Assembly: GCF_036127095.1 (NCBI RefSeq)
Contig: NZ_CP108006.1
Location: forward strand, 5,695,501 to 5,759,500
Source: Streptomyces sp. NBC_00335
GTDB lineage: Bacteria; Actinomycetota; Actinomycetes; Streptomycetales; Streptomycetaceae
Direction of reading: 5' to 3'
DNA length: 64,000 nucleotides
Numbering within the stretch: the first letter of the stretch is position 1; every line of letters begins with the position of its first letter. Of this stretch, positions 52,326-56,264 are shown one piece after another. The notes under the pieces are model-generated. The model was not told the DNA's origin, did not search any database, and worked only from the letters and a program-made list of their open reading frames with translations. Both the position numbers and the translations under genes were made by a program.

Positions 52326-52398
52326 GGGGCTATAGCTCAGTTGGTAGAGCGCCTGCATGGCATGCAGGAGGTCTGGAGTTCAATTCTCCATAGCTCCA
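52326..52398 (+). tRNA. tRNA-Ala (anticodon GGC), copy 1
   Basis: A 73-nt cloverleaf. Acceptor GGGGCTA pairs with TAGCTCC (one G-U), followed by discriminator A; no CCA is encoded. The anticodon stem CCTGC/GCAGG holds loop ATGGCAT with anticodon GGC, reading GCC and GCU codons. The T-arm has GTTCAATTC. It is identical to the copy at 53001-53073. A strong hairpin follows. Confidence 0.97.
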
Positions 52399-52403
52399 CA
52401 ATC

Positions 52404-52443: not shown

Positions 52444-52534
52444 TCCACAGCTGCCCGAGCGAGCACCGGCATGGCAGAATCGGACGGCCGGAGGGGGACG
52501 ACGACGGCCCGACGCGGGAGGGAGTCGCTGACGG

Positions 52535-52768
52535 ATGGGTGCACACCGGCGGCGGTGCGACTGGTGCAACAACGGCACGCCGATCGTGCGGGACATGGAG
52601 CCGGTCAACCCCGACTACCAGTACTGGTGCGAGGAATGTGCGCGGGCGCTGATCATAAAAGGCGACCCGATCGAGACGTACCGAGAGCTGGAGGGCGAGC
52701 CGATCTACGGGCGGCTGCTCGACGAGCACTGCACGCTGAAGCGGTTCTACCAGTTCGCGCGGGCGTGA
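52535..52768 (+). CDS. Small zinc-ribbon-like protein between the two tRNA genes
   Basis: A 77-aa protein with two CxxC pairs, C8-D-W-C11 and C32-E-E-C35, plus a later Cys in EHCTLKRFY. The pattern suggests a zinc-ribbon fold. ATG 52535 is preceded by GGGAGGGAG. It is basic at the N-terminus and has ETYRELEGEPIYGRLL in the centre. I do not recognise a named family. It may bind nucleic acid, but no function can be given. Its position between identical tRNA genes is notable. Confidence 0.8.
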   Translation: MGAHRRRCDWCNNGTPIVRDMEPVNPDYQYWCEECARALIIKGDPIETYRELEGEPIYGRLLDEHCTLKRFYQFARA

Positions 52769-52917
52769 CGCGGGGACGCGCAACGGCGTGAGCCGGTGAC
52801 GCGGGACGGCATGACGTAGGGGCACGGAACGGCATGGCGTAGGTATGCGCAACGAGCCGGGGCATGTGACGAATCGCCATGAAACGGACATGGCCCGGAG
52901 CTCGCGGAAACCGATTT

Positions 52918-52945
52918 TTGGACCAGGGCCATCACCGTGTAATGT
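52918..52945 (+). promoter_or_regulatory. Predicted promoter of the second tRNA-Ala
   Basis: TTGGAC (52918-52923), 16 bp, TAATGT (52940-52945), 55 nt before the tRNA. Local AT content is higher than the surroundings. Confidence 0.5.
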
Positions 52946-52965
52946 TTGGGATGTCGCCAAGGGGG

Positions 52966-52977
52966 ACCGGAAACGGG
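52966..52977 (+). promoter_or_regulatory. Leader element ACCGGAAACGGG before tRNA-Ala copy 2
   Basis: Identical 12-mer to the one at 52296-52307, in the same relative place between the -10 and the tRNA. Confidence 0.35.
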
Positions 52978-53000
52978 CCACGAAGCGGCAGGCAAGACAA

Positions 53001-53073
53001 GGGGCTATAGCTCAGTTGGTAGAGCGCCTGCATGGCATGCAGGAGGTCTGGAGTTCAATTCTCCATAGCTCCA
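53001..53073 (+). tRNA. tRNA-Ala (anticodon GGC), copy 2
   Basis: The same 73 bases as the copy at 52326, base for base, with anticodon GGC and no encoded CCA. It has its own putative promoter and a strong hairpin 7 nt downstream, so it is an independent transcription unit. Confidence 0.97.
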
Positions 53074-53079
53074 CAGTGA

Positions 53080-53113
53080 AGAAGCGGGCCACCGGAAACG
53101 GTGGCCCGCTTCT
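53080..53113 (+). terminator. Terminator of tRNA-Ala copy 2
   Basis: Perfect 15-bp arms (53080-53094, 53099-53113) with a GAAA tetraloop, 7 nt after the tRNA. Confidence 0.85.
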
Positions 53114-53120
53114 CGTTGTG

Positions 53121-53195
53121 CGTGCACCGTTTGTGTGCCCACTGGTTGGGCGTCCACTGGTTGGACGTCCACCGGTCGTGCGTCCACCGGCCGGA
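53121..53195 (+). repeat. Five 15-bp degenerate tandem repeats upstream of the leuS leader
   Basis: Units of consensus CGTCCACYGGTYGKR start at 53121, 53136, 53151, 53166 and 53181. The last three are closest. They lie 43 nt upstream of the leader peptide start, in the promoter region of leuS. Confidence 0.75.
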
Positions 53196-53237
53196 AGGGT
53201 CGAGCGCCCCTCGGGGCCGCTGCGGTACCCTGACGCC

Positions 53238-53276
53238 ATGCGTGCCGTACGCCTTCTGCTTACCGAGCCGCGCTGA
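53238..53276 (+). CDS. leuS leader peptide (MRAVRLLLTEPR)
   Basis: A 12-codon reading frame 114 nt upstream of leuS. It contains three consecutive leucine codons, CTT-CTG-CTT; CTT is rare in Streptomyces. TACCCT ends 6 nt before the ATG, so the peptide may be read from a leaderless mRNA. It is followed by a hairpin (53283-53303) and an intrinsic terminator (53318-53341). The arrangement is that of ribosome-mediated attenuation: uncharged tRNA-Leu would stall the ribosome on the Leu codons and prevent termination. Leucine attenuators have been proposed for actinobacterial leu and leuS genes by comparative work. Confidence 0.75.
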   Translation: MRAVRLLLTEPR

Positions 53277-53282
53277 ACAGTT

Positions 53283-53303
53283 CCGACCCCACGAAGCGGT
53301 CGG
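53283..53303 (+). promoter_or_regulatory. Hairpin between leader peptide and terminator (attenuator)
   Basis: CCGACC (53283-53288) pairs with GGTCGG (53298-53303). A competing pairing exists: GCCGCGC (53267-53273, inside the leader frame) is complementary to GCGCGGC (53309-53315) just before the terminator stem. Mutually exclusive folds of this kind are expected in an attenuator. Confidence 0.5.
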
Positions 53304-53317
53304 CCCCGGCGCGGCGC

Positions 53318-53341
53318 CCCCTCCTGTGCGAGGGGTTTTTT
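53318..53341 (+). terminator. Attenuator terminator upstream of leuS
   Basis: CCCCTC (53318-53323) pairs with GAGGGG (53330-53335) and is followed by six Ts (53336-53341). It is a textbook intrinsic terminator placed 50 nt before leuS. Confidence 0.8.
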
Positions 53342-53390
53342 CGTTTGGGCAGCAGAACCGGCAGAGACGATCGATGGAGCTTCAGGAATC

Positions 53391-56264
53391 ATGAGCGAGA
53401 CGAACACCCCGGCCCCCGAGGCGGCCGAGGCGCACCGTTACACGGCTGCCATGGCCGCCGACATCGAGGCACGCTGGCAGGACGTATGGGACGCGCAGGG
53501 CACCTACGAGGCTCCCAACCCGACCGGTGACCTGGCCGGCGACGCGGCGGTGGTGGCGCGCCCGAAGAAGTTCATCATGGACATGTTCCCGTACCCCTCG
53601 GGTGCGGGGCTGCACGTCGGCCACCCGCTCGGGTACATCGCCACCGACGTCTTCGCCCGCCACCAGCGGATGACCGGCCACAACGTCCTGCACACCCTGG
53701 GCTTCGACGCCTTCGGCCTGCCGGCCGAGCAGTACGCCGTGCAGACCGGTACGCACCCGCGCGTGTCGACCGAGGCGAACATCGAGAACATGAAGGTCCA
53801 GCTGCGCCGGCTGGGTCTGGGCCACGACAAGCGCCGGTCGTTCGCGACGATCGACCCGGACTACTACAAGTGGACCCAGTGGATCTTCCTGCAGATCTAC
53901 AACTCCTGGTACGACGCGGACGCCGCGAAGGCCCGGCCCATCGCCGAGCTGGTCGCCTCCTTCGAGGACGGCTCCCGTGAGCTGCCCGGCGGAGCCTCCT
54001 GGGCCGCGCTGAGCGCGGGCGAGCGCGCCGACGTACTGAACGAGTACCGGCTGGCGTACTCCTCGGACGCGCCCGTCAACTGGTGCCCCGGTCTGGGCAC
54101 CGTACTGGCCAACGAGGAAGTCACCGCCGACGGCCGGTCCGAGCGCGGCAACTTCCCCGTCTTCAAGTCCAAGCTGAGCCAGTGGAACATGCGGATCACG
54201 GCCTACGCCGACCGCCTGATCGACGACCTGGACGCGCTGGACTGGCCCGAGGCCATCAAGCTGCAGCAGCGCAACTGGATCGGCCGCAGCGAGGGCGCCC
54301 GCGTGGACTTCGCGGTCGGCGACGGCGACGCCATCACCGTCTTCACCACCCGCCCCGACACGCTGTTCGGCGCCACCTACATGGTGCTGGCCCCCGAGCA
54401 CGAGCTGGTCGAGAAGATCGTCCCGGCCGCATGGCCCGAGGGCACCCACCAGCTGTGGACCGGCGGCAACGCGACCCCGGCCGAGGCCGTGGACTCGTAC
54501 CGCAAGCAGGCCGCCGCGAAGTCGGACGTCGAGCGGCAGGCCGAGGCCAAGGACAAGACCGGCGTCTTCACCGGCGCGTACGCGACCAACCCGGTCAGCG
54601 GCGACCAGGTGCCCGTCTTCATCGCGGACTACGTGCTGATGGGCTACGGCACCGGCGCGATCATGGCCGTCCCGGCGCACGACAGCCGCGACTTCGAGTT
54701 CGCGCGCGCCTTCGAGCTGCCGATGCGCTGCGTCGTCCAGCCCACGGACGACCGCGACGCCGACCCGCTGGAGTGGGAGGGCGCGTTCTCCTCGTACGAC
54801 GGCACGATCGTCAACTCGACGGGCGAGGGCGTCTCGCTGGACGGTCTGGGCGTGGTCGAGGCCAAGGCCGCGATCACCGAGTGGCTGACCGGGCGCGGCA
54901 TCGGCGAGGGCACCGTCAACTTCCGGCTGCGCGACTGGCTGTTCAGCCGCCAGCGCTACTGGGGCGAGCCCTTCCCGATCGTCTACGACGAGGACGGCGT
55001 CGCCTACCCGCTGCCCGAGTCGATGCTGCCGCTGGAGCTGCCGGAGGTCGAGGACTACTCGCCGCGCACCTTCGCGCCCGACGACGCGGCCTCCCAGCCG
55101 GAGACCCCGCTGTCGCGCAACCAGGCGTGGGTCAACGTCGAGCTGGACCTGGGCGACGGGCGCGGGGTGCGCCCGTTCCGGCGCGAGACCAACACCATGC
55201 CGAACTGGGCCGGCTCCTGCTGGTACGAGCTGCGCTACCTGGACCCGAACAACGGCTCGGCCCTGGTCGACCCCGAGATCGAGCAGTACTGGATGGGCCC
55301 GCGCGAGGGTCAGCCGCACGGCGGCGTCGACCTGTACGTGGGCGGCGCCGAGCACGCGGTGCTGCACCTGCTGTACGCGCGCTTCTGGTCCAAGGTGCTG
55401 TTCGACCTGGGGCACGTCTCCTCGGTGGAGCCGTTCCACAAGCTGTTCAACCAGGGCATGATCCAGGCGTACGCGTACACCGACTCGCGCGGTGTGTACG
55501 TCCCGGCGGCCGAGGTCGAGGAGCGGGACGGCGGCTACTTCTACCAGGGCGAGCCGGTCAAGCGTGAGCACGGCAAGATGGGCAAGTCCCTGAAGAACGC
55601 CGTCACGCCGGACGAGATCTGCGAGGAGTACGGCGCGGACACCCTGCGCCTGTACGAGATGGCGATGGGCCCGCTGGACGTCTCCCGTCCCTGGGACACC
55701 CGGGCCGTGGTCGGCCAGTACCGGCTGCTGCAGCGCCTGTGGCGCAACGTGGTGGACGAGGAGTCGGGCGCCGTGACGGTCGTCGACGGGGAGCCGGACG
55801 AGGCCACCCTGCGCGCGCTGCACAAGGCGATCGACGGGGTCGGCGGCGATATGGCCGGACTGCGGTTCAACACCGCCATCGCGAAGATCACCGAGCTGAA
55901 CAACACCCTGACGAAGGCGGGCCGGCCGCTGGAGCGCTCGGTCGCCGAGCGGCTGGTGCTGCTGGTGGCTCCGCTGGCCCCGCACATCGCGGAGGAGCTG
56001 TGGCAGCGCCTGGGCCACGGCGAGTCGGTCGTCCACCAGGACTTCCCGGTCGCGGACCCGGCGTACGTCGTGGACGAGAGCGTCACGTGCGTCGTCCAGA
56101 TCAAGGGCAAGGTCAAGGCCCGCCTGGAGGTCTCGCCGACGATCTCCGACGCGGAGCTGGAGCAGCTGGCGCTGGGCGACGAGGCGGTCGTGGCGGCGCT
56201 GGGCGGGGCGGAGATCCGCAAGGTGATCGTGCGTGCGCCGAAGCTGGTGAACATCGTCGTCTGA
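53391..56264 (+). CDS. leuS: Leucyl-tRNA synthetase
   Basis: A 957-aa class I synthetase that charges tRNA-Leu. The HIGH motif is H75-V-G-H78 in [13 protein letters not shown]. The KMSKS motif is K729-M-G-K-S733, where Gly replaces the first Ser. The editing domain is inserted at about residues 290-480 with [18 protein letters not shown] and [33 protein letters not shown] and the C-terminal domain are typical of bacterial LeuRS; the length is slightly above E. coli's 860 because of an N-terminal extension and inserts. The ATG at 53391 has AGGAATC. Expression is probably controlled by the leader peptide attenuator upstream. Two alternative hairpins follow the stop. Confidence 0.98.

Follow-up and report, generated by a model that had tools for sequence, protein, structure and literature searches.

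How does a 12-codon, leucine-rich reading frame ahead of the leucyl-tRNA synthetase gene leuS of Streptomyces sp. NBC_00335 come to bear on transcription of that gene, and does it act through the alternative base pairing of the textbook attenuators? An earlier note on the window (the whole stretch of DNA analysed, 64,000 nucleotides of contig NZ_CP108006.1) had read the frame and the hairpins behind it as an attenuator that senses charged tRNA-Leu through mutually exclusive folds; a leuS attenuator is already in print, and the interpretation given in the note is mostly right. Candidate classical attenuators composed of a leader peptide, an antiterminator and terminator hairpins have been described before leuS in S. 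avermitilis and S. coelicolor (PMC1262725, BMC Microbiol 2005), and the leader leuL2 of S. lividans TK24 (MRAVRLLLSEPR), which is leaderless and followed by a hairpin and a U-stretch, precedes the same gene (PMC8079986, Front Microbiol 2021), according to the available portions of both papers. As far as these portions go, the element in the window shares with the 2005 attenuators a Leu-codon leader peptide, hairpins and a terminator upstream of leuS (PMC1262725), and with leuL2, from which nothing of substance sets it apart, the same gene, a probable leaderless start, and a hairpin with a U-stretch, the two peptides (MRAVRLLLSEPR and MRAVRLLLTEPR) being one residue apart of 12 (PMC8079986). 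Taken as a whole, the element is best explained as the actinobacterial leuS attenuator (leuL2), a reading that we consider very probable.

In the window, the leader frame reads ATG CGT GCC GTA CGC CTT CTG CTT ACC GAG CCG CGC TGA (53238-53276; 12 codons, with the TGA at 53274-53276), and 114 nt separate its stop codon from the ATG of leuS (53391), a gene identified by a match of 900 bits to TIGR00396 against a cut-off of 548. A leader peptide with a Leu run 5' of leuS, by which the leuL2 type is recognized, is therefore at hand. These features, together with the TACCCT box 6 nt before the leader ATG, a hairpin, a 6-bp stem followed by six Ts, and the complementarity of GCCGCGC (53267-53273) with GCGCGGC (53309-53315) that forms the core of the hairpin P1, had been pointed out in the earlier note, and all of them are present (Table 1). 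Sequence and covariation (see below) point to an intrinsic terminator between the leader and leuS; terminator-like sites in the 1-kb region number two, this one included, versus 0.6 (sd 1.0) in shuffles, a weak excess when taken alone, and the fold energy of the leader is unremarkable (z -0.93, with 35 of 200 shuffles as good, for a fold that began at 53239, one base late). An Rfam scan of positions 52500-54000, at E up to 1, returned a tRNA and three weak unrelated matches, with no T-box riboswitch among them. The Leu_leader of gamma-proteobacteria (RF00512), a leucine leader peptide attenuator that precedes the leu biosynthesis operon, is likewise absent from these four matches.

Table 1. 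Positions of the leuS leader, its predicted hairpins and neighbouring features in the window.
Feature	Position	Strand	Remark
-10 promoter box TACCCT	53226..53231	+	6 nt 5' of leader ATG (likely leaderless start)
Leader peptide ORF MRAVRLLLTEPR, with stop codon	53238..53276	+	counterpart of S. lividans leuL2
Small predicted 5' hairpin GCGTG/TACGC within leader frame	53240..53252	+	
Leu codons CTT CTG CTT	53253..53261	+	register codon: the third one, CTT at 53259-53261, 5 nt 5' of P1
P1 5' arm GCCGCGCTG	53267..53275	+	covariation; overlaps the final leader codons, stop included
P2, inner hairpin CCGACC/GGTCGG in P1 loop	53283..53303	+	different or absent in other genera
P1 3' arm CGGCGCGGC	53307..53315	+	covariation; ends 2 nt 5' of terminator stem
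Terminator hairpin CCCCTC-CTGTGC-GAGGGG	53318..53335	+	sequence and covariation
UG in terminator loop, U 10 nt after P1 base	53325..53326	+	candidate RNA polymerase pause site (hypothesis)
T6 tract of terminator	53336..53341	+	
leuS, leucine--tRNA ligase, 957 aa	53391..56264	+	NCBIfam TIGR00396

Further features of the neighbourhood were recorded. Two tRNA-Ala(GGC) genes lie upstream of the leader (52326-52399 and 53001-53074; both within 750 nt), and a long GC-rich inverted repeat follows the second of them (about 53080-53113). Just 5' of leuS, the stretch GGCAGAGACGATCGATGGAGCTT (53360-53382) seems by eye to be better kept across Streptomyces than its flanks and is probably part of a putative leuS translation start region. 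The mini-frame ATGGAGCTT, which begins nearby at 53374, was rejected by eye as a second Leu leader because its counterparts at two loci (L015 and L029) have no nearby stop codon and that at a third (L044) has no Leu codon. A second DNA match within the same genome, 27 nt in length, was taken as a GC-rich chance occurrence.

A pattern search (CTNCTT plus CCG within 420 nt upstream of leuS) located the leader in 54 of 80 leuS loci from named genomes, including those of Streptomyces, Streptantibioticus, Micromonospora, Plantactinospora, Amycolatopsis, Prauserella, Kibdelosporangium, Lentzea, Actinopolyspora, Actinophytocola, Blastococcus and Brachybacterium among others; the same pattern gave no leader at the other 26 loci (Mycobacterium, Nocardia, Corynebacterium, Acidimicrobiaceae and others). 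A covariance model, R1, built on 33 of 55 leaders (the 54 found by pattern and that of the window), matches 199 of 200 genomes of the genus and, at E up to 0.001, 177 of 394 genomes of the class, which represent 71 of 137 genera; the class count is probably a lower bound because the filters were strict. Among the matches fetched from outside the genus (100 of the 110 listed, from 99 genomes, with seven near-copies of one genus and three weak matches omitted), leuS lies downstream in 99, and the hundredth stops at its contig end. The Leu-codon leader before leuS is thus kept across species, so that the sequence test proposed in the earlier note was passed, and by sequence the element appears to range more widely than our literature search for leuS attenuators beyond Streptomyces had indicated, a search outside which most subscription papers fell.

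The same leader precedes two groups of LeuRS, which are 35-48%, or about 40% (62 of 99 loci), and 60-73%, or about 66% (37 of 99), identical to the N-terminal part of the enzyme in the window. Both groups occur with the leader in three families (f9, f19 and f20), and one genome (G209, loci L113 and L115) carries both LeuRS genes, each with a leader of its own; either the gene was displaced beneath a leader that stayed, or the two moved as a unit. At four Mycobacterium/Mycolicibacterium loci (L060, L067, L068 and L074), TACCCT stands 6-7 nt 5' of the GTG start of leuS itself, as if leuS were leaderless there, with the attenuator absent.

Both P1 and the terminator, as predicted helices, are supported by covariation. 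Their pairs are formed in 96.4% of cells in the 33 leaders of the model, where five pairs change on both sides versus 1.3 in shuffles. In the 99 leaders outside the model, aligned by fitting to R1 (which favours the model) and including some close kin of the 33 with no identical first 60 nt, the pairs are formed in 98.0% of cells, as compared with 42-53% in slid registers; changes on both sides affect 11 of the 16 P1 and terminator pairs (5.3 in shuffles), and doubly changed cells number 114 (17.2 in shuffles). One partial match, L210, was excluded from alignment A2. The P1 arms can also be read directly, as GCCGTGC/GCACGGC in Micromonospora and Blastococcus and as GCCGCGTCGG/CCGACGCGGC in Brachybacterium.

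The Leu codons keep a fixed register with P1. The codon 5 nt before P1 (two before the codon that holds the first G of P1) specifies Leu in 154 of 154 leaders (55 named ones and 99 found by R1, a model that contains the CTT columns), as CTT in 145, CTC in eight and CTG in one (L187), the last probably reflecting a P1 start mis-set by the script, which located P1 by a short motif kept in the frame of the leader. CTT in all 55 named leaders follows by construction, because the search pattern required CTNCTT; the 99 leaders found by R1 have CTT in 90, CTC in eight and CTG in one. CTT accounts for 45% of leader Leu codons versus 0.3% of Leu codons in the leuS sequence read alongside. In 117 of the 154 leaders, the stop codon lies 7 nt past the P1 start; in 19 it is a TAG 2 nt before P1, and in 18 it is found further on. 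At the 5' end, 98 of the 99 leaders parsed from other genera have a TAnnnT box 6-7 nt ahead of the start codon (the parse allowed 4-10 nt, and R1, by which those leaders were found, includes the TAnnnT columns), and the remaining leader (L156), mis-parsed by the script, also has 6 nt by eye; a leaderless start is therefore likely throughout the set. The suggestion of leaderless transcription made in the earlier note accordingly gains from this geometry, as well as from the S. lividans ortholog, which the available text of the RNA-seq reannotation reports as leaderless (PMC8079986).

The claim of mutually exclusive folds fared differently. The GCCGCGC/GCGCGGC pairing on which it was based is genuine but compatible with the terminator: the two hairpins adjoin, P1 and the terminator core being separated by 2 nt in 98 and by 3 nt in 27 of the 132 leaders, and they would share bases in only three of the 132, after the terminator is extended outward as far as it pairs. 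In the window, P1 and the terminator are both part of the leader's minimum-energy fold when no ribosome is placed on it or when one sits at either of the first two Leu codons. Once the A site holds the third Leu codon, the probability of P1 is down to 0.006 and that of the terminator is 0.986; a ribosome at the stop codon lowers the latter to 0.11. The mean P1 probability (132 leaders less one with an N) starts at 0.95 and is 0.32 with the ribosome at the last Leu codon and 0.00 with it at the stop, a drop that largely follows from the assumed footprint, which blocks five and 10 of 10 pairs, respectively. At the stop codon the ribosome hides P1 entirely; unless it is released quickly, therefore, the opening of P1 alone cannot tell a stalled ribosome from one that has finished translation.

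The leader, its promoter geometry, P1, the terminator, the register of CTT with P1, and leuS downstream are established at the level of sequence. In the mechanism that we propose, RNA polymerase would start at the leader ATG, and a ribosome could therefore load at the very 5' end. When charged tRNA-Leu is plentiful, the leader would be read fast, the ribosome would leave, P1 would form, and the adjoining terminator would stop transcription before leuS; when charged tRNA-Leu is scarce, the ribosome would stall on the Leu run, chiefly at the last CTT, and its leading edge would keep the terminator-proximal half of P1 open, with more read-through into leuS. The response to leucine, the ribosome footprint and the lower termination upon opening of P1 are what we infer. 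Counted against this explanation is the ilvB leader of S. coelicolor, which has the same layout as the leuS leader and in which codon changes are reported, in the available text, to have had no regulatory effect (PMC1262725). The failure of equilibrium folding to reveal a base-pair switch and the behaviour of the window's leader with a ribosome at the stop codon, both given below, likewise weigh against it, as does the full coverage of P1 by a ribosome at that codon.

Alternative ways of coupling translation to termination must be weighed against this proposal. The E. coli trp attenuator combines a codon run, a leader stop near the first hairpin, a first hairpin compatible with the terminator, and a 2:3 antiterminator, and the leuS leader resembles it in its codon run, its stop near the first hairpin, its compatible hairpins and a possible pause after the first of them. 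Were the leuS leader to work in this classical manner, the 3' arm of P1 (region 2) would pair with the 5' half and loop of the terminator (region 3) upon ribosome stalling, which we regard as unlikely. In the window, as in many Streptomyces, GCGCGG can indeed form a helix with CUGUGC in the terminator loop, and in the 33 leaders this helix is paired in 89.8% of cells, but it has no pair altered on both sides, and equally good pairing is reached by 474 of 500 shuffles. Over 132 leaders, the pairing of real terminator loops with P1 does not surpass that of shuffled ones (mean rank 0.53). Pairing of the P1 loop or the leader with either terminator arm gave mean ranks of 0.57, 0.61, 0.72 and 0.44, where 0.5 is chance, and that of the P1 5' arm with the terminator loop and 3' arm gave 0.36, a weak lean (130 or 131 leaders in each case). 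Trapping of the terminator 5' arm before the 3' arm is made was also computed with the ribosome at each Leu codon or at the stop, by equilibrium folding without kinetics, under assumed footprints of 9, 12 and 15 nt and with a uniform distance of 7 nt from the P1 start to the stop codon, from which 37 of the 154 leaders depart; the terminator probability in the full-length RNA was discarded as a measure, being 0.96-0.98 for E. coli trp too, whatever the state. As a positive control, the E. coli trp leader (locus L220) gave 0.07 without a ribosome, 0.71 for a stall at Trp and 0.01 for a ribosome at the stop when everything upstream was blocked, as in the leuS runs, and 0.07, 0.37-0.72 and 0.07, respectively, when the footprint alone was blocked. 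Mean trapping in 131 leuS leaders (132 minus one with an N) was 0.26 without a ribosome, 0.09-0.31 for stalls at Leu codons and 0.32-0.35 for a ribosome at the stop; behaviour like that of trp was seen in just one, two and four of them at the three footprints and its reverse in nine, six and two, the window itself being of the reverse kind (0.68 at the stop versus 0.01-0.03 at Leu codons). The 2:3 antiterminator that this test sees in trp is thus seen in almost no leuS leader, and the leuS leader differs further in its likely leaderless start. Among the 130-132 leaders, no antiterminator excluding the terminator was found by equilibrium folding, which is not final, and these modelled results lower the probability of the classical arrangement. 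The 2005 leuS attenuators, for which the available text names an antiterminator hairpin (PMC1262725), differ in this respect from the leaders studied here, which also range well beyond Streptomyces. In the Corynebacterium ilvB-II motif, an upstream frame (uORF) lies over the first stem, P1, a terminator stem follows, and the available text proposes that the right side of the terminator pairs with the P1 loop (PMC10272879, Microb Genom 2023); in leuS leaders, this pairing does not exceed that of shuffled sequences (mean rank 0.57).

P1 could instead be the antiterminator itself, formed upon an early stall and masked once the ribosome reaches the stop codon, as the earlier note and perhaps also the 2005 authors supposed. 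A ribosome at the stop would cover P1 in both main stop-codon classes (117 and 19 of 154 leaders), and a stall at the first Leu codon leaves P1 intact; nevertheless, P1 and the terminator have no bases in common in 129 of 132 leaders even after extension, the two fold together in the window, and, with the ribosome at the first Leu codon, where P1 does form, little of the terminator 5' arm is engaged (0.08), all of which makes this role for P1 quite improbable. A terminator that acts constitutively, with the leader setting a fixed level of leuS and the Leu codons having no regulatory role, would accord with the precedent reported for the S. coelicolor ilvB leader codons in the available text (PMC1262725) and with the folding and pairing tests of 131-132 leaders, in which no antiterminator was found; we consider it the least probable of these alternatives, the register of the Leu codons and the CTT bias being hard to explain without decoding of that codon.

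Under the explanation that we prefer, attenuation by a ribosome stalled on the Leu run, no base-paired antiterminator was found that would link P1 to the terminator in the 130-132 leaders. P1 may serve as a pause hairpin, or it may stack on the terminator as its companion. Of 132 terminator loops, 123 contain a UG, as compared with a mean of 88.8 and a maximum of 102 in 500 shuffles (kinship is still in the sample), and its U lies 10-12 nt after the base of P1 in 108 of the 132 leaders; the length of the terminator arm is near-constant, so a tie of the UG to P1 and a tie to the loop are indistinguishable in these data. Pauses stabilised by a hairpin in the trp and his leaders have a spacing close to 10-12 nt after the hairpin base, with which the spacing of the UG is consistent as that of a candidate RNA polymerase pause. 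A more specific proposal would make the element a class-wide attenuator without a base-paired antiterminator, in which a stall at the fixed, rare CTT keeps open the terminator-proximal half of P1, a hairpin that would otherwise abut the terminator directly and detain RNA polymerase at the loop UG; it is tentative, and we would sooner doubt than accept it.

The side-by-side layout of P1 and terminator recurs before two other genes, ilvB and cimA. Weaker second matches to R1 were found before ilvB, a gene recognised by eye, in three Streptomyces (L116, L118 and L119, minus strand), and the leader there, MRTRILVLGKRVG, is identical to ilvL of S. lividans as given in the available text (PMC8079986). 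P1 and terminator of the Streptomyces ilvB leader likewise stand side by side, with the terminator UG, by eye, about 10 nt after the base of P1. In one genome of family f17, a weaker R1 match (L117:1501-1615, minus strand) precedes the citramalate synthase gene cimA (TIGR00977, above cut-off), with a leader, MFYGLLIIGRRAG, that carries a Leu-Leu-Ile-Ile run and is followed by P1 and a terminator (L117, L221-L239). The cimA leader stretch matches 54 of 61 genomes of f17, the query included, several of these matches covering little beyond the terminator; the best 20 loci of this search, again including the query, all have cimA downstream and the LLII frame (the pattern required Leu-Leu-Ile). No cimA leader of this kind was found in a literature search at listing level, and the cimA leader with Leu-Leu-Ile-Ile is apparently undescribed.

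Beyond what is in print, the present analysis adds the wide range of the leuS leader within the class, the covariation of P1 and terminator, the CTT register, and the compatibility of P1 with the terminator. A leader of fixed geometry, found in 71 of 137 sampled genera and before two divergent LeuRS groups, is therefore well suited to the study of ribosome-controlled termination in actinobacteria; likewise, since the textbook antiterminator was not found in the leuS leader, the puzzle posed by the S. coelicolor ilvB codons becomes testable on a second gene. If the tentative proposal of a pause at the loop UG is true, control would be exerted by pausing and helix stacking instead of alternative base pairing.
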